Shown here: piece after piece, positions 3,210-50,204 of the stretch | Layout: each line of letters begins with the position of its first letter | Numbering within the stretch: the first letter of the stretch is position 1 | Origin: Deltaproteobacteria bacterium | GTDB lineage: Bacteria > Desulfobacterota > Desulfobaccia > Desulfobaccales > 0-14-0-80-60-11 | Direction of reading: 5' to 3' | Assembly (NCBI GenBank): GCA_030018495.1 | Contig: JASEFS010000016.1 | Location: 1 to 64,000 of the forward strand | DNA length: 64,000 nucleotides | Translations under genes and position numbers: made by a program | Notes under the pieces: model-generated | The model's database searches: none | What the model saw: only the letters and a program-made list of their open reading frames with translations | What the model was told of the DNA's origin: nothing

Positions 3210-4010
3210 ATGCCGACGATAAGCTTGTCGCCGCGCCTGGCTGAGGAATATTGCCACCTTTTTGATACCTGCGTCATCAATGCCGGCCGCATGGCTGAAG
3301 TAGAAGGCATTTTGGCGAAAATAGAGCAGCATAGACGCCGCTATGACGCGGTGGCCGAGGCTTTGTCAATGCCCTGGTATGTTATTGCGGTGATTCACAG
3401 CCTGGAGTCATCGCTTAGTTTCGCCAGGCACCTGCATAACGGCGATCCTCTTGACGCCAGAACGGTTCGGGTGCCCGCCGGCCGCCCCAAAACCGGCAGC
3501 CCTCCCTTTACCTGGGAAGAGAGCGCCATTGATGCCCTGAAATATCATGAACTGGACGCCTGGCAGGACTGGTCTTTGCCCGGCCTGCTGTATAAATTGG
3601 AGGAATATAACGGCTGGGGCTACCGCCTCTATCATCCCCACATCCTATCCCCCTACCTGTGGAGTTGTTCAAATCACTATCAACGAGGCAAGTACCTGGC
3701 TGACGGCGTCTGGTCGGAGACGGCCGTCTCAAGGCAAACCGGAGCCGCAGTTTTGCTGAAAGCACTGGCCGAAAAAGGCGCTGTCAGGTTCTCCGGAGTT
3801 GCGGCTGCCGACCCTGCTGTTTCGGCAAAACCATTTCTGGTTTATTCCATGAATGAATGGTCCGCGTACGCCCAGGAACTGCAAATCTTCTTGAACAAAT
3901 TTCCTGGGAATTCTGTGAAAGTGGACGGATTTCCTGGAAATGAAACTTCCGAGGCGTTCAGGAGAGTGACGGGCTTTTATCTGAAAGGGGACCCCAGGGC
4001 TCAGGCATGA
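3210..4010 (+). CDS. Lysozyme-family (COG5526-like) protein with peptidoglycan-binding tail
   Basis: 266 residues. The N-terminal two-thirds carries the pattern of the COG5526 lysozyme family: VIHSLESSLSF with a candidate catalytic Glu near residue 69, HLHNGDPL, PAGRP, FTWEESAIDAL, YNGWGYR and SPYLWS. The C-terminal part (about 205-262) resembles a PG_binding_1 fold (QIFLNKFPG...KVDGFPGNET). No signal peptide is visible. The family is common in phage lysis cassettes, but there are no holin or structural phage genes here, so this is a lone gene. It is convergent with waaA and overlaps its 3' end by 10 bp. Role in wall turnover is inferred. Confidence 0.75.
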   Translation: MPTISLSPRLAEEYCHLFDTCVINAGRMAEVEGILAKIEQHRRRYDAVAEALSMPWYVIAVIHSLESSLSFARHLHNGDPLDARTVRVPAGRPKTGSPPFTWEESAIDALKYHELDAWQDWSLPGLLYKLEEYNGWGYRLYHPHILSPYLWSCSNHYQRGKYLADGVWSETAVSRQTGAAVLLKALAEKGAVRFSGVAAADPAVSAKPFLVYSMNEWSAYAQELQIFLNKFPGNSVKVDGFPGNETSEAFRRVTGFYLKGDPRAQA

Positions 4011-5416
4011 GTTGGTGACCTTTGCCCGAACAACCCGCCGATCAGCTCAGCCTGTCGCCTGGCCGCGCCCTGGTGCGGCAGAAGGGAGGCCCTGGCCCGG
4101 GCACCCATTTCCCGGCGCAAGGCAGGATTATCTAAAAGGGTTTTGGCCTCAACCGACAGCGACTCGGCGTCCCGCACCATAATGCCGGCCCGGGCTTCCT
4201 CCAGGATCTCCTGAGCCCAGCGGAAATTGGAGAGGTGCGGACCGTACAGGGGCGCCACCCCCCAAGCCGCAGGCTCCAGAATGTTCTGGCCGCCATGCGG
4301 CACCAGGGAGCCACCCACAAAGGCCAGGTCAGCCACGCTGTACAGGTTCATGAGGTCGCCGATGGTGTCAATGATTACCACCGGTTGCGCCCGACGTTCA
4401 GTCCCTGCCTTGAGGCGGTGCCACCGTTGACAAGCCAAACCTTTTTGCCGGATCAGCTTTTCCAGCTCCCCGGCCCGTTCGGGATGCCGGGGCGCCAGCA
4501 GCAGCACCAGGGCAGGGCAGGGGGTCCGAAGCTGCTCATACGCGGCAAGCACCGCCTCATCCTCACCGGGATGGGTGGATGCGGCCAAAAAGACCGGCTG
4601 TCCGTCGAGATTGAGCTTTTCTCTCATAGCCGATGAGACGGAGCCGTCCTGGCCGCCGATTTTTGCCTGGACGTCTGAGGTTTCGGAGTCCTTGACAACT
4701 GAAACTGCCTGAGAGGGCAGGGGGGCGCCGGGCTGCGTCTCCGCCTGCCGCGCCAGCAGCCGCTCGATCTTGAGGTTGCCGGTCAGGTGCACTTTTCCCT
4801 CACCTAATCCCAAGCAGCGCAGACGGTCGTAATCCCGGCGCGAACCCGCTGCAATGGCGTCAAATAATTGATAAATTTCAATTACATATCGCTTAAACAG
4901 GGAGAATCTGCGAAAAGACTTATCCGACAGGCGGGCGTTCAGGAGGGCCAGGCGCACCCCCCGCCGATGGGCGCTGATGAGGAAATTGGGCCATAATTCC
5001 GATTCCAGGGCGATGAAGATGTCCGGTTTGAGGTGGTTCAGGTAGCGCTGCACGGCCCAGGGCACGTCCAGGGGAAAGTAGCACACGTACGCGCCCAGGG
5101 GCTCCAGGTGCCGCCGGGCCTGGGCTTGGCCGGTTTCAGTGCCGGTGGTGACAATGAAAGACGCGTCTGGGAAAAGGTTCTTGAGTTCGCGCAGCAGGGG
5201 AGGGGCGCTCAAGATTTCGCCCACCGACACCCCGTGCAGCCAAATGCGGGGAGTGCCTTCGGAAGGGCTGCCGTTGGCCAGTTTAAGGCCCAGTCGCTCC
5301 GCAAAACTTTCCCCTTGGCCCCTGCTTCTCAGGTGCCACCAGAAATAAGGCCAGCCAAGCAGGCCGGCCTTCAGTGAGGCTATGAAATATATTAAATATA
5401 ATAGATACTTATCCAT
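4001..5416 (-). CDS. waaA: 3-deoxy-D-manno-octulosonic acid (Kdo) transferase
   Basis: 471 residues; GT-B glycosyltransferase that transfers Kdo from CMP-Kdo to lipid IVA, the first inner-core step of LPS synthesis. Recognisable features are an N-terminal membrane anchor, WLHGVSVGE with the conserved active-site Glu, the VTTGTETG and LESELWPN segments, and the C-terminal GGSLVPHGGQNILEPAAWG CMP-sugar-binding region. Somewhat longer than the usual 420-430 residues because of an insertion near 240-275 (QPGAPLPSQAVSVVKDSE region). Its presence shows a Gram-negative envelope. Start at the ATG at 5416, followed downstream by the convergent lysozyme-like gene. Confidence 0.94.
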   Translation of the reverse strand: MDKYLLYLIYFIASLKAGLLGWPYFWWHLRSRGQGESFAERLGLKLANGSPSEGTPRIWLHGVSVGEILSAPPLLRELKNLFPDASFIVTTGTETGQAQARRHLEPLGAYVCYFPLDVPWAVQRYLNHLKPDIFIALESELWPNFLISAHRRGVRLALLNARLSDKSFRRFSLFKRYVIEIYQLFDAIAAGSRRDYDRLRCLGLGEGKVHLTGNLKIERLLARQAETQPGAPLPSQAVSVVKDSETSDVQAKIGGQDGSVSSAMREKLNLDGQPVFLAASTHPGEDEAVLAAYEQLRTPCPALVLLLAPRHPERAGELEKLIRQKGLACQRWHRLKAGTERRAQPVVIIDTIGDLMNLYSVADLAFVGGSLVPHGGQNILEPAAWGVAPLYGPHLSNFRWAQEILEEARAGIMVRDAESLSVEAKTLLDNPALRREMGARARASLLPHQGAARRQAELIGGLFGQRSPTHA

Positions 5417-5924: not shown

Positions 5925-5953
5925 TTAGTTTACATAATATATATTATCAGACG

Positions 5954-6523
5954 TCAAAAGAGTTCCCGCTTTAATAATCTTTTGAGGTCCTGATACTGAA
6001 TGGCGACCACACGCCATTCTTTCATGGATTGGTCCCAGGCCATACTGAAGCGGAACGGCTCTCCGGTATGCGGGTCCAGAATTTTCACCTGGGCGACGTC
6101 TCCCTGCCTGTCGATATGCGCGGTAGTCGCCGCCGCCGCCAAAGCCAAAACTTCGGTTCTGCTCAATTCCTGCAAATAGCGCTCAATCGCGGCTTTCACT
6201 TGCTTGTCAAATTTTTCCACCAACTTAGGCAGGACAAACTTGGCCACTTTGGTGCCCAGACGGCGGCTCAGGCGGTCCCACTCATCCAGGTCCGGCTTGT
6301 CCGGCCCTGCCAGGTCTGTACAGCCGGCATCCACCATATTGTTGGCAATCTCTTGTAAATCCAAGTACTTAAAAAATTTGTCCATATTGCCGGTTTGAAT
6401 TGCCAGGACCATTTGCTGCAAAGCATAGCGGGGCGAATTCAGCCAGCGCCAGTAAAGCGCGCCGGTGACCCCGGCGGTCAGGAGAACCACCGCAGAAAAT
6501 ATGATTATGGCGGATCGCTTCAT
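5954..6523 (-). CDS. Membrane-anchored DUF2939-like protein
   Basis: 189 residues with one N-terminal hydrophobic segment (residues 5-25, likely uncleaved anchor or signal peptide) followed by SPRYALQQMVLAIQTGNMDK, resembling the start of DUF2939 proteins (an alternating 'S-P-x-Y-A-L...A-I...D' pattern). The rest should be periplasmic. It has no catalytic motif that I recognise. Divergent from the short gene at 6611. Confidence 0.6.
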   Translation of the reverse strand: MKRSAIIIFSAVVLLTAGVTGALYWRWLNSPRYALQQMVLAIQTGNMDKFFKYLDLQEIANNMVDAGCTDLAGPDKPDLDEWDRLSRRLGTKVAKFVLPKLVEKFDKQVKAAIERYLQELSRTEVLALAAAATTAHIDRQGDVAQVKILDPHTGEPFRFSMAWDQSMKEWRVVAIQYQDLKRLLKRELF

Positions 6524-12847: not shown

Positions 12848-14803
12848 ATGACTCCCAAACGCCCTGTTTATCCCTTTGCCGCTTTAGTCGGTCAGGACTT
12901 GCTCAAGAAGGCCCTTATCCTGAACGCCGTCAACCCCAAGCTGGGCGGGGTCCTGGTGCGGGGCGAAAAAGGCACCGCCAAGTCCACCGCGGCCCGGGGT
13001 TTGGCCGAGCTGCTGCCGCCCATCGCCACGGTGGCCAACTGCCCTTTCCACTGCGACCCCGAAGACCAGGCCCTCATGTGCGACGACTGCCGCAAGCGCC
13101 GTGAGGCCGGCGAATCCCTGCCGGGGCGCGCCCGGCCCATGCCCGTGGTGGACCTGCCCCTGGGCACCACCGAGGACCGCCTGCTGGGCACCATCGACCT
13201 GGAGAAGGCCGTCAAGACCGGCGAGAAGCACTTCGAGCCGGGCCTGCTGGCCCACGCCCACCGGGGCATCCTCTACGTGGACGAAGTGAATCTGTTGGAC
13301 GACCACCTGGTGGACGTGCTCCTGGACGCCGCGGCCATGGGCGTCAACGTGGTGGAGCGGGAAGGCATTTCGTTTTCCCACCCGGCCCGCTTCATCCTGG
13401 TGGGCACCATGAACCCCGAGGAAGGGGAGCTCAGGCCCCAACTGCTGGACCGCTTCGGCCTGTGCGTCGAGATTACCGGCCTGAAAAACTATGAGGACCG
13501 CATGGCCGTAGTGGAGCGGCGCCTGGCCTACGAAGATGATCCCGAAAAGTTCGCCCGCGAGTGGGAGCCCGAACAGGAGCGGCTGCGCGGGAACATCCTG
13601 GCAGCCCGGCAGCGCTTGGCGGAAGTAGGCTTCGACCCCGCCATCCTGCGCCTCATCACCGCGGTCTGCCTGGAGCAGGGGGTGGACGGCCACCGGGCCG
13701 ACATCTACATGCTCAAAACGGCCCAGACCCTGGCCGCGTTCCACGGGCGGGGCCGGGTCGGGGTGGAGGACGTCAAAGAGGCCGCGTTTCTGGTGCTCCC
13801 CCACCGCCTGCGCAAGAAGCCTTTCGGCGAGGCCGGCATTGACCGGCAGAATCTGGAAGAGATTTTTCAAAAGCACCGGGAGGAGCAGGAGCGGGCTTAT
13901 ACGCCGCCGGGGCCCGCCGCGGTCGAACCTGACTCCCGGAGCGAAGAGACCCGCAGCATCGGCGAAGTGACCGCGGCGCCGGCCGACCCCTTTCCGGTCA
14001 AACCCCTGGAGTTCGCCCCGGACCGGCAGGACCGCCAAGCCCCGGGCAGCCGCACCCGGGCCAAAAGCCGGGACCAGACCGGGCGCTACGTGCGCTCCGG
14101 CCTCACCCGCCCCCCGGTTCCGGACCTGGCCCTGGACGCCACCCTCAGGGCCGCGGCCCCCTACCAAAACCTGCGGGACAAAGGCAACCTGGCTGTGGCC
14201 ATCGCGGACGCGGACCTGCGCTACAAGGTGCGGGAAAAGCGCATCGGCCGGCACATACTCTTTGTGGTGGACGCCTCCGGCTCCATGGGCGCGGACGAGC
14301 GCATGGCCGAAACCAAGGCCGCCATCCTCTCGCTGCTCCTGGACGCCTATCAGAAGCGGGAGCGGGTGGGGCTCATCGCGTTCCGGGGCGAAACCGCCGA
14401 AGTGCTCCTGCCCTTCACCAACAGCGTGGACAACGCGGCCAGGCGCCTGGCGGTGCTGCCCACCGGCGGCAAGACGCCCCTGCCCGCGGGCCTGGCGTTG
14501 GCCTGCGACTTAATAAAGAAAGAGAAAGCCGGCCACCCCCAGGACGCCTTTCTGCTGGTGCTCATCACCGACGGCAAGGCCAACATCTCCTTGACCGGCA
14601 AGCCGCCCATGGCCGAGGTCAAGGAGCTGGCGGCCCGCATCCGCTCCCTGGGCATCGACGCCATGATCCTGAATACCGAGCGCTACTGGCACGAAGCCAG
14701 CAACCTGCCGGAAATCAGCCGGATCATGGGCGCCTCCCATTACACCATCGAGAAGCTCAGGGCCGGGGACGTGGTGGCCCGCATCGGCGCGGCTTTAAAG
14801 TGA
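12848..14803 (+). CDS. Fused I+D-type metallochelatase subunit (Mg/Co-chelatase AAA+/vWA)
   Basis: 651 residues. N-terminal AAA+ ATPase has Walker A GEKGTAKST (about 39-47), Walker B ILYVDEVNLLDD and the sensor GTMNPEEGELRPQLLDRFGL. There is a Pro/Arg-rich acidic linker (about 345-430). The C-terminal von Willebrand A domain has the MIDAS motif DASGSM (about 477-482). This ChlI-ChlD fusion is the form annotated as putative cobaltochelatase, assisting a CobN-type subunit in inserting metal into a tetrapyrrole. No CobN or ChlH gene is nearby, so the partner and metal are unknown. A clear terminator follows. Confidence 0.9.
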   Translation: MTPKRPVYPFAALVGQDLLKKALILNAVNPKLGGVLVRGEKGTAKSTAARGLAELLPPIATVANCPFHCDPEDQALMCDDCRKRREAGESLPGRARPMPVVDLPLGTTEDRLLGTIDLEKAVKTGEKHFEPGLLAHAHRGILYVDEVNLLDDHLVDVLLDAAAMGVNVVEREGISFSHPARFILVGTMNPEEGELRPQLLDRFGLCVEITGLKNYEDRMAVVERRLAYEDDPEKFAREWEPEQERLRGNILAARQRLAEVGFDPAILRLITAVCLEQGVDGHRADIYMLKTAQTLAAFHGRGRVGVEDVKEAAFLVLPHRLRKKPFGEAGIDRQNLEEIFQKHREEQERAYTPPGPAAVEPDSRSEETRSIGEVTAAPADPFPVKPLEFAPDRQDRQAPGSRTRAKSRDQTGRYVRSGLTRPPVPDLALDATLRAAAPYQNLRDKGNLAVAIADADLRYKVREKRIGRHILFVVDASGSMGADERMAETKAAILSLLLDAYQKRERVGLIAFRGETAEVLLPFTNSVDNAARRLAVLPTGGKTPLPAGLALACDLIKKEKAGHPQDAFLLVLITDGKANISLTGKPPMAEVKELAARIRSLGIDAMILNTERYWHEASNLPEISRIMGASHYTIEKLRAGDVVARIGAALK

Positions 14804-14881
14804 GCCGGAAATTAGGGGTGGGGACAATCCGGGCCCGGAAGAAATCCCCGATACTTCAATAATACTCTTTCTCTCTGTGAC

Positions 14882-34962: not shown

Positions 34963-36015
34963 ATGTCGGGTAACACCTTCGGGCGCATTTTCCGGGTGAC
35001 CACCTGGGGTGAATCCCACGGCCCCGCAGTGGGGGCCGTTATTGACGGCTGCCCTCCCCGCTTGGCGCTGAGCCCGGCTGATATCGACCGGGAACTGGCC
35101 CGGCGCCGCCCCGGCGTGCAGGCTCATGCCACGAGTCGCCGGGAGGCGGATAAGGTGGAAATATTATCCGGCGTTTTCGAAGGCCTTACCACCGGGACGC
35201 CCATAAGCCTGCTCATCTACAATAAAGACGTGCGCAGCCAGGACTATGAGGCGTTCAAGAATCTCTACCGTCCCGGCCACGGCGACATCACCTACCAGGC
35301 CAAGTACGGCATCCGGGACTACAAGGGCGGCGGACGGGCGTCGGCCCGGGAAACCGCCGCGCGGGTGGCCGCAGGGGCCGTGGCCCAGAAAATCCTTGAC
35401 CGGGAAAGCATCCAGGTGCTGGCATATACCCTGGAATTGGGCGGCGTCAAGGCCCAGCGCCTGGTGGAGGCCGCGATCTGGGACAATCCGTATTTTTGCG
35501 CGGACCCGGACGCGGTTGAGGCTATGAGCCGCCGCATCGCCGAGGTGAAAAGTCAGGGCGATTCTCTTGGGGGCGTTGTGGAAGTGCGGGTCAAAAACTG
35601 TCCCGCGGGTCTGGGTGAGCCGGTTTTTGACAAACTGGACGCGGCTCTGGCCCACGCGGTCATGTCCGTGGGCGCGGTTAAGGGCGTGGAAATCGGCGCC
35701 GGCTTCGCCGCGGCCCGGATGCTGGGAAGTGAAAACAACGACACCATCCTGCCGTCCGGTTTCGCGTCCAACAACGCCGGCGGCATCCTGGCCGGCATTT
35801 CCAACGGCGACGACATCATCATCCGGGCCGCTGTCAAACCCATCCCATCCATCGCCCGGGAGCAGCAAACCGTCGACACCCAGGGCCGACCGCGTCCCCT
35901 CAGCATTAAGGGCCGCCACGACATCAGCGCCATCCCGCGCATCGTGCCCGTGCTCGCGGCCATGGTGCGCCTCACCCTGGCCGACTTCCTCCTCCGCCAG
36001 AGGGCAATTGCATGA
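34963..36015 (+). CDS. aroC: Chorismate synthase
   Basis: 350 residues; converts EPSP to chorismate using reduced FMN. Signatures: GRIFRVTTWGESHGPAVG, RRRPGVQAHATSRREADKVE, GHGDITYQAKYGIRDYKGGGRASARETA (across about residues 105-132) and GILAGISNGDDIIIRAAVKPIPSI. Full length. The upstream gap has short CCACTGACC heptamer-like repeats (34932-34960). Its stop overlaps the tyrA start (ATGA). Confidence 0.96.
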   Translation: MSGNTFGRIFRVTTWGESHGPAVGAVIDGCPPRLALSPADIDRELARRRPGVQAHATSRREADKVEILSGVFEGLTTGTPISLLIYNKDVRSQDYEAFKNLYRPGHGDITYQAKYGIRDYKGGGRASARETAARVAAGAVAQKILDRESIQVLAYTLELGGVKAQRLVEAAIWDNPYFCADPDAVEAMSRRIAEVKSQGDSLGGVVEVRVKNCPAGLGEPVFDKLDAALAHAVMSVGAVKGVEIGAGFAAARMLGSENNDTILPSGFASNNAGGILAGISNGDDIIIRAAVKPIPSIAREQQTVDTQGRPRPLSIKGRHDISAIPRIVPVLAAMVRLTLADFLLRQRAIA

Positions 36016-36944
36016 CATTAAACAAGGATTTGAAAAGAATTGGGGAAGGGAGCCAGGGGTCACCGCCCCCTGCCCCCTCCCCCAATCCCCCTCCCCCAAC
36101 CCCTTACAGGGCGTTGGAAGGGGAGTTTGAGGGGAGGGCGGGGAATTTGCAATCCTCCGGCCCTCCCCTCAACGAAAACAAGCCGGAACCCGTAACCGTC
36201 GGCCTCATCGGCGGGGCCGGGGTTATGGGCCAGTGGCTCAAGCGTTTCTTCGAAAGTCAGGGTCTCATCGTGTTGGTGGCTGACCTTGACACCCGGCAGA
36301 CTTCCCAGGAGGTGGCCCGGGTTGCGGATGTGGTGATTTTGTGCGTTCCCATTCCCGAAGTGGCCAAAGTGGCCCGGGAAGTCGCGCCGCATCTCAAGCC
36401 CGACGCCGCGCTCATGGACATCACCTCGGTCAAGCAGAGCCCCATGGCCGCCATGCTGTCGGCCTTCTCCGGCGAAGTGGTGGGCACCCACCCCCTTTTC
36501 GGCCCGGGTGAGGAGAGCATCAACGGCCGCACCGTGGTTCTCTGTCAGGGCCGGGGAGAGCGCTGGTTCAACTGGCTCAGGGACCTCTTCACCCGCTCCG
36601 GGGCCAAAGTAAAGGTCACCACCCCCACGGAGCACGACCGCCTTATGGCCGTGGTGCAGGGGCTGGCGCATTTCATCCTGATCGCCCTGGGAACCGCCAT
36701 CCGGGAGCTGGGCGTGCCGTTGGCAGACCTGGAGGATTTCGCCACCCCCACTTTTGCCACGCTGCACAACCTGACCCGCCGCCTGATAAGCCAGGATGCC
36801 AAATTATACGCCTGCATCCAATTGCAGAATCCCGCCAACCGGGTCGCGTTGCGGGCCCTGGAGGACGCGGTGGCCGATATTCTTTACTGCATTCAGCGCC
36901 AGAATGTGGACGGCCTGGTGCGGCTGATCGAAGGGATTCGGTAG
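36012..36944 (+). CDS. tyrA: Prephenate dehydrogenase with repeat-derived N-terminal extension
   Basis: 310 residues; NAD(P)-dependent oxidative decarboxylation of prephenate towards tyrosine. The Rossmann fold starts VGLIGGAGVMGQWLKRFF (about residue 63), followed by VVILCVPIPEV, ALMDITSVK, GTHPLFGPG (substrate site) and a helical C-terminal domain. No chorismate mutase or ACT domain. The first 60 residues are low complexity (GSPPPAPSPNPPPPTP) and are encoded by a C-rich REP-type palindrome (36060-36150), so an intergenic repeat has become an N-terminal tail. ATGA overlap with aroC. Confidence 0.88.
   Translation: MTLNKDLKRIGEGSQGSPPPAPSPNPPPPTPYRALEGEFEGRAGNLQSSGPPLNENKPEPVTVGLIGGAGVMGQWLKRFFESQGLIVLVADLDTRQTSQEVARVADVVILCVPIPEVAKVAREVAPHLKPDAALMDITSVKQSPMAAMLSAFSGEVVGTHPLFGPGEESINGRTVVLCQGRGERWFNWLRDLFTRSGAKVKVTTPTEHDRLMAVVQGLAHFILIALGTAIRELGVPLADLEDFATPTFATLHNLTRRLISQDAKLYACIQLQNPANRVALRALEDAVADILYCIQRQNVDGLVRLIEGIR
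36060..36150. repeat. C-rich REP-type palindrome inside tyrA 5' end
   Basis: CCCCCTGCCCCCTCCCCCAATCC...CAACCCCTTACAGGGCGTTGGAAGGGGAGTTTGAGGGGAGG. It closely resembles the palindrome at 1-73 and keeps the tyrA frame open. Confidence 0.7.
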
Positions 36945-38377: not shown

Positions 38378-38843
38378 GACGGTTTTTGGTTTTTGGTTTT
38401 TGGTTTTTGGTTTTCTTATATTTTGCTCGACAGGCCTTTAACCATTTTCATTATTCTTTCCAAAATCTCCATCAGATATTCAAATATTTCTGTCGATAAG
38501 TAGTTGACCTCCTTTGAAATTATCAAATGTGTCTCTAATTCTGCGGCAGAGCCAAAAGCGACGGAGAGAAACTGTTTGAATTCCTTAGGGGAACTCCTGG
38601 CCTGCCCTTCCGCAATATTGGCTGGAATTGAAACAGCCGCCCGCCTTACTTGATTTGTCAAGCCATAGAGTTCGGAAACCGGGAACTCATTGGTTATCCT
38701 ATAAATCTCCTTAACAAGTTCAATGGAAAGCTTCCAGACTTCGAGGTCGCGATAAGACCTCGATCTAAGTTTTTCCTTTTCCATGGAGACTTAAGTTCTT
38801 AGAAAACAAACCAAAAACCATAAACCAAAAACCAAAAACCGTC
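38378..38843. mobile_element. IVP element A: inverted heptamer repeats enclosing a four-helix-bundle gene
   Basis: Left end GACGGTTTTTGGTTTTTGG (38378-38415, five heptamers) is mirrored by the right end ...CCAAAAACCAAAAACCGTC (38801-38843). The outer GACGG/CCGTC also match, so the inverted repeat extends past the heptamers. The left end starts right after the serS stop; the right end overlaps the stop of the 38842 gene by about 2 bp. The interior is almost entirely the IVP gene and is clearly more AT-rich than its surroundings. No transposase is present. Mobility is inference. Confidence 0.6.
38416..38784 (-). CDS. Four-helix-bundle protein, IVP/S23 family
   Basis: 122 residues matching the TIGR02436 'four helix bundle' / 23S rRNA intervening-sequence protein family: SYRDLEVWKLSIELVKEIY, NQVRRAAVSIPANIAEGQ and EFKQFLSVAFGSAAELET. 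All helical, basic, no enzymatic motif. Family relatives lie in 23S rRNA intervening sequences of Leptospira and Coxiella, and the DGR accessory protein Avd has the same fold. The stop codon abuts the left heptamer block. AT-rich compared with neighbours, suggesting transfer. About 60% identical by eye to the 40054 gene. Confidence 0.88.
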   Translation of the reverse strand: MEKEKLRSRSYRDLEVWKLSIELVKEIYRITNEFPVSELYGLTNQVRRAAVSIPANIAEGQARSSPKEFKQFLSVAFGSAAELETHLIISKEVNYLSTEIFEYLMEILERIMKMVKGLSSKI

Positions 38844-39987
38844 ACTTCGCCGGTTTCACCTTATCATTCGGCCGAAACGGCCCGCCGCTCACTTCCGCGG
38901 CCACGGCCCCGGAACTGCCCAACAATTCGGTGACCCGCAGTTCGCCCTTCGCCACGTCCGCGCCGAACCCTAAACTGGCCTGAGTTTGGGGGTTAACCAC
39001 CTCTTTTCCGGCCTCCACCACTTTAAGGCGATCCCCCACCTTGAGGCCGGCGTTCTGGCCCAGGCTGAGGTATACCCTGTCGCCCTGGACGAACTCCACC
39101 CGGCCGAACCAGTCCATATTCACCAACTCGGCGTTCACCCTCAGGGCATTGTCCCGGGCGAAACGTTTTACCGCATCGATGGTGGCGCCTTCTGAACCCG
39201 CCGGCCCCAGCACGGAATCGACCTTGCGGCCGTAGTAGGTATCGTAAATATCCAGGGAGAGATATTCGCTGCCTGCCTTTTCCCCGCCCACGATGTTGGT
39301 CAGGACGATGGCCTGGACTCCCAGATGATCGCCCAGGGCGCGAATGTTCGTTGGCAGTGACAATTTCCCGTGCACCCCGGCCCTGGCCAGGGCCGCCCGC
39401 ACCTTATCCGGCGGCGCCACTTTAACATCTTTGTGCCGCCCTAACACTTCCGCCAGGCTGATGGCCAGGGTCTGATTTGCCCCGGCGTACCTGGAAGGAG
39501 TTTCCGGATTAGGAATAATGCCCACGGCTCGCCCGGTTATTCCCAAGCTCTCCCCGCGATAGCGGGCCGCATACCCGCCCAGGCCCTGTTCGCGCAAAAT
39601 GCGGTCCACTTCGGCCCGCACCATCTCCTGGAGCTTGTCCGGCGGCACGGTCTTGCCCGCGGCTTTGCCCTGCTCGGTGGCTATTTTCTTGGCCAGGGAC
39701 TCCATCAGGTAATCCTGGAACCCTTTATACTCCTTGCCCTTTTCCACATACATATATTCCGACTGCTCGGGAAGAATGAGATAGTATGGATTTCTGCTGC
39801 GGACATAGGGCTTGCCGTCCACCATAACCGTTTCCTGCTGCGACTCGGGGGGCGCGGTAACCTCGGCATCCTCTTCTCCGACGCCGTAGCCCGCCCACTG
39901 TTTCACGCTTTTCCACGCACCGCAATTGCTCACAAGCACCGCCAGGATTATTGCCAAGCCTAACCGCCAGTTAACCTTCTCGCGCAT
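38842..39987 (-). CDS. Exported FlgT-like (probable lipo)protein
   Basis: 381 residues with an N-terminal hydrophobic segment ending VLVSNC, a near-lipobox (Asn at -1 is unusual). There is an acidic/Glu-rich helical stretch at about 85-135. A CsgG/TolB-N-like middle region (LAEVLGRHKDVKVAPPDKVRAAL...LGDHLGVQAIVLTNIVGG) is followed by a C-terminal domain like FlgT-C (VYLSLGQNAGLKVGDRLKVV). Outer-membrane-associated assembly or regulatory role is inferred; no flagellar genes adjoin. The gene is bracketed by IVP element B upstream and element A downstream. Confidence 0.65.
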   Translation of the reverse strand: MREKVNWRLGLAIILAVLVSNCGAWKSVKQWAGYGVGEEDAEVTAPPESQQETVMVDGKPYVRSRNPYYLILPEQSEYMYVEKGKEYKGFQDYLMESLAKKIATEQGKAAGKTVPPDKLQEMVRAEVDRILREQGLGGYAARYRGESLGITGRAVGIIPNPETPSRYAGANQTLAISLAEVLGRHKDVKVAPPDKVRAALARAGVHGKLSLPTNIRALGDHLGVQAIVLTNIVGGEKAGSEYLSLDIYDTYYGRKVDSVLGPAGSEGATIDAVKRFARDNALRVNAELVNMDWFGRVEFVQGDRVYLSLGQNAGLKVGDRLKVVEAGKEVVNPQTQASLGFGADVAKGELRVTELLGSSGAVAAEVSGGPFRPNDKVKPAK

Positions 39988-44054: not shown

Positions 44055-44281
44055 CGGTTTTCGGTTTTCAGTTTTCGGTTTTCGGTTTAAAAATGTAGCC
44101 GCAGGCTTTAGCCTGCGTTATCTCTTTTCTATTATTTTGTATTTTCCGAGATTTTTTTCTGATGCTCAGGGCCGCTTGCGAAAATTTCGCGGTTAGGTAG
44201 ATCTTATCAAAATGATGATTGTTTTGGCTATGGCCGCCGACGTTTTTCACCAAAAACCAAAAACTAAAAACTAAAAACCAC
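44055..44281. repeat. Inverted pair of heptamer blocks (no ORF inside)
   Basis: GTTTTCG x5 (44055-44088) faces CCAAAAA/CTAAAAA x4 (44249-44281) across about 160 bp that holds only a small GCAGGC-TTTA-GCCTGC palindrome. Same geometry as the IVP elements but empty. It occupies the divergent promoter region of ispH-ubiA and the CruF-like gene. Confidence 0.65.
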
Positions 44282-44293
44282 TTTCAAAAAATA

Positions 44294-45073
44294 ATGGACC
44301 TCCTCCAGCTAACCTGGGGCACCCTCATCCTCCGCCCCTATGTCTTCATCTTCCTGGCCTGCTACCTGGCCCTGGCCATACTGCACCTGGGACTGGGCCG
44401 CGCCCTGGCCTTCCTTGTCTTAGGCTATCTGGTGGCCTGGACCGTGGAATTCTCCTCCATCCACACCGGCTTTCCCTTCGGCCTCTATATTTACATCCCC
44501 GCCACCGAGGACCGGGAGCTGTGGATTGCCGGAGTGCCTTTCATGGACTCCCTCTCTTACGTATTCCTGGCCTATGCCGGCTTCACCATGGCGCTGCCGG
44601 CCCTGGGCCGCTCCGGCCAGGGAGGGCGATTTCATCCCGAAGATGAAAAGTCTTTGTGGAATTCCTGGCGGGTCGCCGTTTTAGGCGCGGTCCTGACCAT
44701 GACCCTGGACATCGTCATCGACCCGGTGGCCCTGCGGGGCTACCGCTGGTTTCTGGGCCAGATTTACGGCTACCCGGAATACGGCGTCTATTTCGGCGTG
44801 CCCTTGACCAACTTTGCGGGCTGGTTTTTGGTGGCCTTTGTGTTATTAATTCTCCTGCAGGTCTTGAATACCCGCCTGCCCGCGTCCGGCTGGTGGACGC
44901 GGGGCCGCCGCCGGTTCGCGGGCCAAGCCTTCCTGGGACCCGCCCTCTACCTGGGCATTCTGGCTTTCAACCTCTTCATGACCTTCTGGATCGGCGAATA
45001 CACCCTGGGCTGGGTCGGGGTTTTTATTTACGCGCCTTTTCTCACGTGGCTGGCCTTGAAAACGCTTCCTTGA
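44294..45073 (+). CDS. CruF/DUF422-like carotenoid biosynthesis membrane protein
   Basis: 259 residues, six to seven hydrophobic helices. DUF422/CruF pattern: AWTVEFSSIHTGFPFGLYIY (conserved E and H), GVPFMDSLSYVFLAY, TLDIVIDPVALRGYRW and GVPLTNFAGWFLV. CruF hydrates terminal double bonds of carotenoids, and its archaeal relatives follow the UbiA-type lycopene elongase. Divergent from the IspH-UbiA fusion, it fits a C50-like or hydroxylated carotenoid step, though no phytoene synthase or desaturase is in the window. ATG 44294 chosen because upstream codons fall in the heptamer repeat. Confidence 0.8.
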   Translation: MDLLQLTWGTLILRPYVFIFLACYLALAILHLGLGRALAFLVLGYLVAWTVEFSSIHTGFPFGLYIYIPATEDRELWIAGVPFMDSLSYVFLAYAGFTMALPALGRSGQGGRFHPEDEKSLWNSWRVAVLGAVLTMTLDIVIDPVALRGYRWFLGQIYGYPEYGVYFGVPLTNFAGWFLVAFVLLILLQVLNTRLPASGWWTRGRRRFAGQAFLGPALYLGILAFNLFMTFWIGEYTLGWVGVFIYAPFLTWLALKTLP

Positions 45074-45175
45074 CAGTTTGGAGGACCTTAGGTTTGCTAC
45101 CTTTAGATTTTCCTTATGAAAATTTATCCGTCCCGGACCCCTTTCGTAGGCGCGGTTCGCGAACCGCTCCCACGG

Positions 45176-47201: not shown

Positions 47202-47558
47202 CTAGAAGGTCATCGTTTGATATTCGGCTATCAAATCGATGAGATACGGCGCCCCTAATATGCTGACCCCCGGAATCATTTCATCGGGGGTTAAATATCT
47301 GTGATCCACTCAGGCCTTGCAGGCCACAATCTCACATTTTTCCTGTATCAAATAATCGATAAACGGCTTCATTTCTTCGCCGGTGGCCGCGCGCACGCCT
47401 TCGGCCATGCCCAGTTGGGCCCAGTGAATGGCGTCGTCCACCAGGAAGACCTTGACGTCATGCCCCTTTTCTCGGGCCACTTTGGCGAACTGCCAGGCCC
47501 GGGTGGCGCGCCCGGCCTTCTCGAAGCCGTTGGAAATGATAAAAAGCATTTTCGCCAT
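47202..47558 (-). CDS. DsrE-family selenoprotein (in-frame UGA at residue 83, CxxU motif)
   Basis: 118 residues if UGA at 47310-47312 is read as selenocysteine. Residues 1-82 are a DsrE/DsrF-like fold (MAKMLFIISNGFEKAGRA, GHDVKVFLVDDAIHWA). The sequence then reads IVACKA-U-VDHRYLTPDEMIPGVSILG and ends at TAG 47202. The post-UGA part is what a DsrE protein needs to be complete, and the UGA takes the place of a redox Cys in C-x-x-C. A hairpin lies 25 nt after the UGA. The RBS GGAGGTGATC sits just before ATG 47558. DsrE-like selenoproteins are known. It follows the seleno-cytochrome gene by 87 bp, so probably one operon. Stopping at UGA would give a truncated fold. Confidence 0.8.
47266..47291 (-). 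promoter_or_regulatory. Candidate bacterial SECIS hairpin of dsrE
   Basis: ACCCCCG / CGGGGGU, 7-bp stem with 12-nt loop AUGAAAUGAUUC; the loop starts 26 nt 3' of the UGA, inside the usual SelB window, with a G near the 5' side of the loop. Confidence 0.6.
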
Positions 47559-47645: not shown

Positions 47646-50204
47646 TTACTCCCCGCCTTCTTCCTGCTTCTCTGCCGGTTGCTCCTGAGCCGCAACCTCC
47701 TTGTACCACTCCGAGTGGTGCTTTTTGGCCCACTTGCGGCCCACCTTGCCGTCCACCAGGGCCCGCCAGGTGCCCGGGTTGGCGATGGTGCCCAGGTACG
47801 CGTGAGCGATCACCGCGGCCACGAAGATAACCGCCACGAGGCCGTGCATGGTGGACATCAAGCAGTTAAACGTCAGCGGCAGGCTGTTCTTGAAGATCAG
47901 GAGCACGCCGGTCGCACCCATAAAGAGGCTCAAGGCGGCGGTCAGCCATACAAAGATCTTTTGTCCCGCGTTCAGCCGGCCCGCCGGGACTTCCACCTCA
48001 GTGCCGCTGAAGTAGCCGCCATGCTTCTTCAGCCATTCCCTGTCGTAGGGCGCGAACCTGGCGTCCCTGGCCCAGAGGATGACGCTCACCGCCGAGGCAG
48101 CCAGGAAGATAAGGCCGGTGACCCAGTGAAAGATCACCGCGCCGGCGGGCGAGTCGAAAAACATCCTGAGCATGGACACATTATTATAGAAGAAGATATA
48201 ACCGGTGAACGTCAGCAGCAAAAAGGCGATCATCCGGACCAGATGCGTCCAGCGCTCCGCCAGGCTGAAGCGTTGAATCACCGCGGGCTCGGCGTAGAAA
48301 TCCGCGCCCTTTGGCCCCATGCCGGTGTAGTGCAGGGTGATGGCGAATACCAGGAGGAGCAGGAATATGCTCACATAGGGCGTGAGATACATCTGGTGAA
48401 ACTGGTTCACATAAAAGGCCCAGGGCTGGCAGCCGAAGAACCTCCCGGAGCTCTGGGTGACGGGCTTGCCGCCGGGGCCGAACATGTCGGTAACAATCTG
48501 GCCCTTGAACATATGGGCCTCAGCGGAGTGGCAGTCGCCGCAGCCGTTTGCGCCCAAAGCCAGGCTGGCCGGGGCCACGTTGTGGTTGATGTTGAACCCC
48601 TCCAGGTGGCCGGCCCAGGTGTCGTCCTGCCGGCTTGCCACCTCCCCCTTATCGTCCAGAAAATAGAGCCTGCCGCCCTTATGGAAAAAGGGTTTGACTT
48701 GCTGAAAGCGCTTGTTGCCCTGAAGGGTTTCCGTGAGAGCCGCCAGCGCGGTTTTGATCTGCTCGGGGGTGTGCAACTCCGGCCTTTGGGGGTTTTTGGG
48801 CTGAAGCTGCGCCTTGGCTTTTTCATAGCCTTTTTTAAGCTCCCGGGCAAACAAGGGGTAATGAATGCCGTCCTTGTCTTGGTTGGTGAAGAACACCGCT
48901 TTCAGCACGTTCACCGGCCAAAGCTTGCCGTGTTCGTCCCTCTGGTACTGAGGGTGCCAGGTGAACTCCTGGCCGATTTTTTTGGCGCCCGGCGGCGGCA
49001 TCATTTTGGCGTAATTAACCATGCCGCCGGTGGTGACATCGAAGCCTTCGCCAGCAGCCCGGTGCAGGGCCGGGATGTGGCAGACTTCGCAGGCCAGCTT
49101 GTCCAGATGGTTGGGGCGGATCTTCATGTGCGCCGGCCGGGGCGCGCCCATGTAGCCCTGTTCGTGGCACTGGCCGCAGGTCTTTATGGTGTTGTCCAGG
49201 TCGTCCCGCACCGTGGAGACGTTTTCATCCCCTTTGGCGAAGTTGTGCATGTCGTCGATGGCCGGGTGGCAATGAGCGCAGTTCATGCCCTGGAGGTTGT
49301 GGACATCGTGGTTGACCCGGTCGTCCCAGGAAAAGCCCCGCTTCTTGACATCCGACAGGCCGTGGCAGAAGACGCAGTTCTCCGCGGGCGGCGGATAGGC
49401 CAGGTCCAGGACGATTCGGCCGTCATTATTGAACAGCCGGGTGTTGTACGATACCACCGGCTGTTGGTCTTCTCTTACAAAACCCGTCACTTGGCCGATG
49501 CCCGAAGCCGCGGTGCCGGCCCACTTGTAATTCAGCATCTTGAGCTGCCGGGTGCGCTCTTTGAAATCATAGCCCGGCAGGTGGCAGATGAAGCAGTCCG
49601 CCTCCACCACGCCGGTTTTGTCCCAGCGGCTCTGGAAATAGTCGCCGTCCAGGCTCTGCGCCAGCCCGGGGTTGGCCTGCAGCCGGGCGCTGTAGCGCTG
49701 GCCGTCCCGGTCGTACTCCAGGCCGCCGCCCCCCGGATGGCAGGAGCCGCAAGAAGGCTGGGTGATGTTTTGGGGGTCTATGGGTCCGACGCTGATCCAG
49801 GCCCACGGGGTGAGGTCAATCTGATCGGGATGGTCATTCTTCTTTTTCGCCAACTGGCGAAAGGAGGGCGGTCAGAACTTGCCCATCATGCCGTCGGACA
49901 GAACCCAGGGCTTTTTCTTGTCGAAATCGTCCTTGATCCGGTCCCAGCCCTGCTGGAAATGATAGCCCTTGGTGATCTTGTCATAGTCGTGGCAGGCCCC
50001 GCAGGTCTGGCGGGAGCTGTAAGGCTGGTCGGCGTTCTCGCCGGTCAGCGGGTTGATGATCCTGCCGTCCTCGGTCTTGAGGTGGAAAGGCACGCAAGCC
50101 CGTTCCTTGGCAATCACCGGCGACGGCGTCAAGAGGGCCGATAGGCCCGCCAGCGCCAAAATCGCCGCCATGCCGATGAGCAAGCTGACCGCAAAGCGTC
50201 TCAT
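47646..50204 (-). CDS. CbcL-like octaheme c / membrane cytochrome b, selenoprotein with UGA at residue 111
   Basis: 852 residues when UGA (49872-49874) is read through. Signal peptide at residues 1-32. Eight CxxCH heme-c sites: CGACH (68-72) before the UGA, then CGSCH (152-156), CFICH, CVFCH, CAHCH, CGQCH, CEVCH and CGDCH after it. A C-terminal membrane domain of four to five helices follows (from about residue 615), with His residues typical of a formate-dehydrogenase-gamma/HydC diheme cytochrome b. This matches the layout of Geobacter CbcL, an inner-membrane quinol oxidase passing electrons to periplasmic cytochromes. The Sec context is GMMGKF-U-PPSFRQLAKKK. The first 110 residues carry the only signal peptide and the rest carries none, so both must be one protein. 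A strong hairpin follows the UGA. Confidence 0.82.
49845..49862 (-). promoter_or_regulatory. Candidate bacterial SECIS hairpin of the cytochrome gene
   Basis: UUUCGCC-AGUU-GGCGAAA: perfect 7-bp stem, tetraloop with G at position 2, loop beginning 17 nt after the UGA. This is close to the textbook bacterial SECIS geometry. Confidence 0.75.

Follow-up and report, generated by a model that had tools for sequence, protein, structure and literature searches.

Proteins of the DsrE/TusD type are known sulfur carriers that operate through one essential cysteine. In A. vinosum the sulfur-binding residue is DsrE-Cys78 (PMC3397948), and in the archaeon Metallosphaera cuprina the protein DsrE3A reacts with tetrathionate and hands thiosulfate to its partner TusA (PMC4175335). 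Selenoproteins with the DsrE fold have also been described: the consulted parts of PMC1088965 (table 3), PMC2398784 (where they appear as DsrE 1 and DsrE 2), PMC9312934 and PMC13188914 all give their motif as UxxC, and we found no report of a CxxU motif for DsrE in those portions of the open-access literature that were available.

Here we describe a DsrE gene that very probably encodes a selenoprotein with selenocysteine (Sec) at the second position of its motif. It lies in a window of 64,000 nucleotides, this being the whole stretch of DNA that was analysed, from a sulfite-reductase-bearing Desulfobacterota-type bacterium. We infer the actual insertion of Sec from the reading frame, the domain, the homologues, the decoding machinery and a conserved hairpin. 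The original prediction for this locus held that DsrE-like selenoproteins had already been reported, which is right for the fold and not for the position, the published ones being UxxC and not CxxU. As far as the sequences and the published extracts go, it is this position that is new: the sulfur-carrying Cys is kept and Sec would replace the second Cys, whereas the published DsrE selenoprotein motifs are UxxC.

Table 1. Coordinates of the features discussed, numbered from the first letter of the window
Feature	Position	Strand	Details
Putative DsrE-family selenoprotein gene	47202..47558	minus	118 aa with Sec; final stop TAG 47204-47202
DsrE start codon ATG	47558	minus	
In-frame TGA, codon 83 of DsrE	47312-47310	minus	Sec reading C80-K-A-U83
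Shine-Dalgarno GGAGG of the DsrE gene	47570-47566	minus	strong, read directly, 7 nt before ATG
Candidate bacterial SECIS hairpin of DsrE	47266..47291	minus	7-bp outer stem (6 bp in relatives), 3 further inner bp, bulge AU, apical loop AUGA
Octahaem cytochrome c (8 CxxCH) and FdhI-type cytochrome b fusion gene	47646..50204	minus	852 aa with Sec
In-frame TGA, codon 111 of the cytochrome	49872..49874	minus	GKF-U-PPS
Candidate SECIS hairpin of the cytochrome	49845..49862	minus	TTTCGCC AGTT GGCGAAA

The reading frame and its in-frame UGA

The original prediction described the DsrE gene correctly, leaving out only its strand (Table 1), and its central claim, that reading TGA as Sec completes a DsrE domain up to a normal stop, is borne out: the Pfam DsrE match (PF02635; 71.9 bits, cut-off 22.7) covers residues 3-118 and extends across the UGA, and the frame ends at an ordinary TAG. 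The UGA had been placed where the second Cys of a C-x-x-C motif is expected, and this too holds, with 10 distinct C-x-x-U genes found and C-x-x-C homologues numerous. Structure prediction with Sec read as Cys, also suggested there, returned a confident DsrE domain (pLDDT 96.1), in which a strand ends at residue 80 and a helix runs from residue 81. What had been omitted is the next gene upstream of DsrE, a second candidate Sec gene; both are easy to miss because ordinary annotation cuts or splits them at the UGA. Other frames with a single TGA (12848-14815, 3977-5416, 38791-39987, 34963-36021, 5930-6523 and 44219-45091) were considered and set aside, their TGA lying near the C-terminal end and having the look of an ordinary stop.

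Conservation of the UGA codon and of the frame beyond it

A scan of genome contigs with the DsrE protein, Sec again being read as Cys, returned 32 relatives. Matches were present in 31 of 99 related genomes and, at E 1e-6 or better, in 100 of 395 genomes across the phylum. The same TGA is present in the six closest relatives (L009-L014, 71-79% identity), of which L009 comes from the isolate Desulfoferrobacter suflitae DRH4. Seven other distinct genes of the same clade, taken from separate assemblies including that of DRH4, repeat both the TGA and the open frame past it, a recurrence which makes the pattern more than chance. In an 82-row alignment of the closer family, 72 rows have Cys and 10 have TGA at position 83, 69 have Cys and 13 have TGA at position 80, neither position shows any further residue, and Arg87 is present throughout (82/82). 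Such alternation, judged on this alignment, is the classical signature of Sec/Cys exchange. Sorted by motif, 100 distinct DsrE segments comprise 66 CxxC, 21 UxxC, 10 CxxU and three of neither kind, tallies that are not frequencies, since TGA-bearing matches were collected first and other matches incompletely; none of the 100 has Sec at both motif positions (UxxU).

These observations bear directly on two alternative readings. One is that the TGA reflects a sequencing error, a nonsense mutation or a pseudogene, the normal gene having a sense codon at this point. A single TGA of this kind is possible in a metagenome-type assembly, and broken DsrE copies do occur, in L033 and L039. However, the same TGA in 10 distinct genes, on separate contigs and in one isolate genome, largely refutes such an origin, protein conservation continues past the TGA, and the synonymous sites around it are frozen; we regard this reading as exceedingly improbable. 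The other is that the UGA is a real stop that yields a shortened DsrE of 82 aa, with any readthrough incidental. Selenoprotein decoding competes with termination, and a short product, which would contain the carrier Cys, may exist. Yet the last strands of the fold would be missing from such a product, according to the predicted model, and none of the 82 aligned relatives ends at this codon, the Cys forms likewise running past position 83. Homologues that end here, or conservation that stops here, were what the original prediction had itself named as counting against a Sec reading. That the shortened protein is the intended product is very improbable, and decoding of the UGA as Sec is the reading that we carry forward.

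A conserved hairpin downstream of the UGA

Shortly after the DsrE UGA lies a hairpin with a small apical loop that contains a G (AUGA), which is the form of a bacterial SECIS. Its outer stem reads ACCCCCG/CGGGGGU in the window and CCCCCG/CGGGGG in relatives. It had been predicted as a 7-bp hairpin 25 nt downstream; the hairpin is real and of that length, and the distance is about right for the loop, which follows the UGA by 26 nt, but the stem already starts at 19 nt. The stem-loop is kept in all eight genes of the close Sec clade, within a sequence that is nearly frozen between the UGA and the far end of the stem-loop, and all 72 cells of the comparison (nine pairs in eight sequences) are paired. 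Seven of the nine pairs are invariant and two vary on one side with pairing kept, as in a Pro-to-Leu change in L013 that leaves a U-G pair. No stem pair is changed on both sides across the eight sequences, and covariation therefore gives no support.

Synonymous sites close to the UGA are unusually constant: a single codon is used in four of 10 invariant-residue columns within codons +1 to +15, against one of 48 elsewhere (p 0.002), the zone having been picked after inspection of the alignment and its columns not being independent of descent. When folded alone, as the original prediction had recommended, the hairpin has a stability that is ordinary beside shuffled sequences (z -0.30, -0.44 and +0.80 for three lengths). 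An Rfam search of the window returned no match. Two genes with the motif CKAUADKR, L044 and L049, possess a different hairpin (CUCAUCG GUCC CGAUGAG), which means that the SECIS element is not common to all CxxU genes; its distinctness fits a putative separate gain of Sec.

Selenocysteine machinery of the host

The genome to which the window belongs is 99.97% complete and contains SelB, which the original prediction had proposed to look for, at 372.7 bits (cut-off 242). It also contains SelA (604 bits), tRNA-Sec (73.2 bits) and SelD (386.5 bits), the last with one in-frame TGA (L074, G000:C55:29319-30230), as in known Sec forms of SelD; none of the genome's sel matches is located on the window's contig. 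SelA was found in 23 of the 24 genomes tested: nine of nine other genomes with a CxxU DsrE, seven of seven control genomes with the Cys type, and seven of eight further genomes that have the upstream cytochrome type, the miss being G026. Its presence in the Cys-type controls means that loss of the Sec system does not account for the Cys forms.

The adjoining octahaem cytochrome

In the gene upstream of DsrE a TGA splits the ordinary reading. Read through, the frame encodes a protein with a leader, eight motifs of the form CxxCH and, at its C-terminus, a cytochrome b resembling formate dehydrogenase gamma, and places U111 between the first and second haem motifs. The candidate hairpin that follows is repeated nearly unchanged in 11 GKFU genes, and nine more distant GGR[WY]U genes have it in a close or shifted form. 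The Sec/Cys site is conserved in about 20 relatives; the U111 site has Cys in some relatives (L155, L162, L170) and neither residue in others (L163, L164, L166-L168, L171, L172), L158 and L169 standing outside this comparison as their available stretch does not cover the site. Freezing of synonymous sites is seen at this UGA as well, in five of 10 columns versus two of 17 for the GKFU set (p 0.065) and three of seven versus one of 37 for the GGR[WY]U set (p 0.0098).

With 35.1 bits against TIGR04315, far below the cut-off of 375, the haem domain is not a member of that family by score, and no octahaem family in NCBIfam release 20 matches the protein above its cut-off. ExtKL (NF040886), a known family of cytochrome selenoproteins, was considered for this gene and rejected, being absent from the NCBIfam matches up to E 1. 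One protein of TIGR04315, the octahaem tetrathionate reductase family, is listed as a GenBank-annotated selenoprotein in PMC13188914, and PMC1914089 concerns a different, five-haem case in Geobacter. Searches of the open-access literature for octaheme, multiheme or c-type cytochromes together with selenium found no account of the cytochrome protein, and its gene is possibly the stronger novelty of the two. In G026, the genome with no SelA match, the GKFU cytochrome (L183) is broken into two frames; decay after lost Sec decoding and incomplete assembly are both possible causes.

Pairing of the two genes and genomic context

The cytochrome stop and the DsrE ATG are 87 nt apart on the same strand, no terminator-like site was found on the minus strand of this gap, and the two genes are probably co-transcribed. 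DsrE lies within about 215 nt of the GKFU cytochrome in eight of 11 genomes (the host's own, G004, G007, G009, G011, G013, G015 and G016); in G022, G131 and G026 the stretches read around the cytochrome showed no DsrE. L021, outside that count, has a cytochrome fragment some 1.7 kb ahead of its DsrE, in the same orientation. Three of the eight cytochrome-adjoining DsrE have Sec and five have plain Cys, so that the pair, whatever its role, can do without Sec. DsrE is the second gene of the pair in the window, G004, G011 and G015, and the first in G007, G009, G013 and G016; this difference in order, and the fact that the window DsrE belongs to a different clade from the other seven, indicate that the association arose, or was retained, on more than one occasion.

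Elsewhere in the window's own clade the DsrE neighbours include TusA (near L010 and L103), a PhsA-like molybdoprotein with an FlpD/Hdr-type subunit (near L009) and a TIGR04315-like octahaem cytochrome (near L011), with a similar, unscored gene in L012. The common thread of these neighbourhoods is sulfur-compound redox; dsrA, dsrC and three TusA domains are present in the host's own genome. In L009 (2613-2963), L010 (2484-2924) and L014 (3-554) the CxxU DsrE is directly preceded by another, weakly DsrE-like gene, whose product may build a mixed complex by analogy with DsrEFH. To judge from its leader, the haem domain of the cytochrome should be outside the membrane, and DsrE is presumably cytoplasmic, so that any link between them would run through a pathway and not through direct contact.

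Position of the probable selenocysteine and evolution of the motif

In a profile alignment, C80 of the window DsrE is matched with a cysteine of A. vinosum DsrE (2hy5_A) which by count is residue 78, and CKAU with the CKTC of E. coli YchN. Taken with the strand-to-helix transition in the predicted model, this alignment identifies U83 as the second, resolving-type position. The structural matches to the model from Foldseek and VIA-align are led by YchN and other DsrE-fold entries; the best are of DsrE type, with 3mc3 at Z 17.3 and YchN (1jx7) at Z 17.0 over 114 residues, and TusBCD (2d1p_A) reaches Z 14.4.

A tree was made from those 82 of the 100 distinct segments that matched at E 1e-30 or better, the other 18 being dropped, over 120 alignment columns with the motif columns kept and U read as a gap. 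By its starred branches, many other forks being unresolved, CxxU and UxxC each require two changes or more; on the tree as it stands, the two motifs are separate changes. The window DsrE sits in an all-Sec clade of eight, and L044 and L049 sit among Cys forms. The phylum also holds a separate and common set of UxxC genes (mostly UIPC), with Sec at the sulfur-carrying position, comprising L104-L112, L102, L057, L061, L063 and others. L033 has, near position 604, a shortened DsrE start like that of the Sec clade (MNKMLFIISNGFEKAGRAT); an intact CKAC DsrE follows soon after, at 768-1127, and the shortened copy looks like the remnant of a replaced gene.

Proposed mechanism

In proposing how this protein might work, we start from decoding: SelB and tRNA-Sec, acting at the hairpin that closely follows, would read UGA codon 83 as Sec. 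C80, which corresponds to Cys78, the sulfur-carrying residue in DsrE/TusD, would take up a sulfane sulfur or a thiosulfate group, and U83, about one helical turn further on, would then attack to give a selenenylsulfide intermediate, from which sulfur would be released or passed on. The resolving position may be better served by selenium, and DsrE would be a redox-active sulfur relay, not a plain carrier. This relay chemistry, with its selenenylsulfide step, is drawn from the likeness to known carriers and is put forward tentatively, as a proposal of nearly even standing.

The same Cys-Sec pair could be read in two other ways. DsrE might carry no sulfur and work simply as a thiol-disulfide oxidoreductase for the neighbouring cytochrome or its haem-attachment partners; the gene does adjoin a cytochrome, and CxxU is described as a common redox motif (PMC13188914). 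Against this, DsrE lacks a leader and the known family members are cytoplasmic, while the haem domain would lie outside the membrane, and at the loci read no other Sec-clade member adjoins the GKFU cytochrome type; we consider the idea unlikely, though it keeps some weight. Alternatively, the pair might move selenium or reduce selenite in place of relaying sulfur, making DsrE a selenium carrier or selenium-handling protein. There is precedent in YedF, in which a TusA domain is joined to a DsrE domain with CGxC and which is linked to SelD (PMC5322559), and TusA-type genes occur near L010 and L103. However, the window protein is a DsrE protein without a TusA domain, the sel genes that were matched are on other contigs, and the neighbours of its relatives are sulfur-type or cytochrome genes (L009, L011); a selenium-handling role is decidedly unlikely.

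Returning to the sulfur relay, DsrE may share a sulfur-compound redox pathway with the membrane-bound octahaem cytochrome c-cytochrome b selenoprotein, and we infer both a sulfur-redox role and a working link to the cytochrome. A bolder version, and a slightly more doubtful one than the relay chemistry itself, is a two-selenoprotein respiratory module, in which the cytochrome Sec may bind or attack a sulfur compound at a haem and Sec-DsrE may relay the sulfur, with Sec at either DsrE position in separate lineages. The adjacent Sec-containing octahaem cytochrome suggests that selenium takes part in a sulfur-linked respiratory chain, of which we found no description.

Comparison with known systems

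E. coli YchN (1jx7) has the same fold, and its CKTC is the counterpart of CKAU, but YchN has Cys at both positions; nothing was found in the open-access literature on its function in connection with DsrE. The DsrE subunit of DsrEFH (2hy5_A) and TusBCD (2d1p) are likewise similar in fold, Cys78 of 2hy5_A being aligned with C80. However, 2hy5_A has Ala at the second position, where the window DsrE would have Sec, and works in a three-subunit complex. Within the window, the gene adjoins a cytochrome and no second DsrE, and a search of the genome with the window protein as query found one significant DsrE. The M. cuprina DsrE3A offers, as a carrier of the DsrE fold, a model for the possible role of C80; it is archaeal, Cys-based and named as another DsrE subgroup (PMC4175335). 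TIGR04315 is octahaem like the upstream gene, but the match is weak and the upstream gene has in addition a cytochrome b fusion.

A further comparison is with the UxxC DsrE-like selenoproteins from the Sargasso Sea, GOS and Desulfovibrio vulgaris (PMC13188914 Table 1, as available), which have the same PF02635 fold, one Sec and the same motif spacing. In these, as far as the extracts go, Sec comes first and replaces the sulfur-carrying Cys, whereas in the window DsrE it would come second, and the UxxC genes found here lie on separate branches from the window CxxU gene. If this reading is true, Sec at either active-site position would support two different chemistries on one DsrE scaffold, and Sec placed first or second, in the same fold and in related bacteria, would amount to a clean natural test of what each position does.
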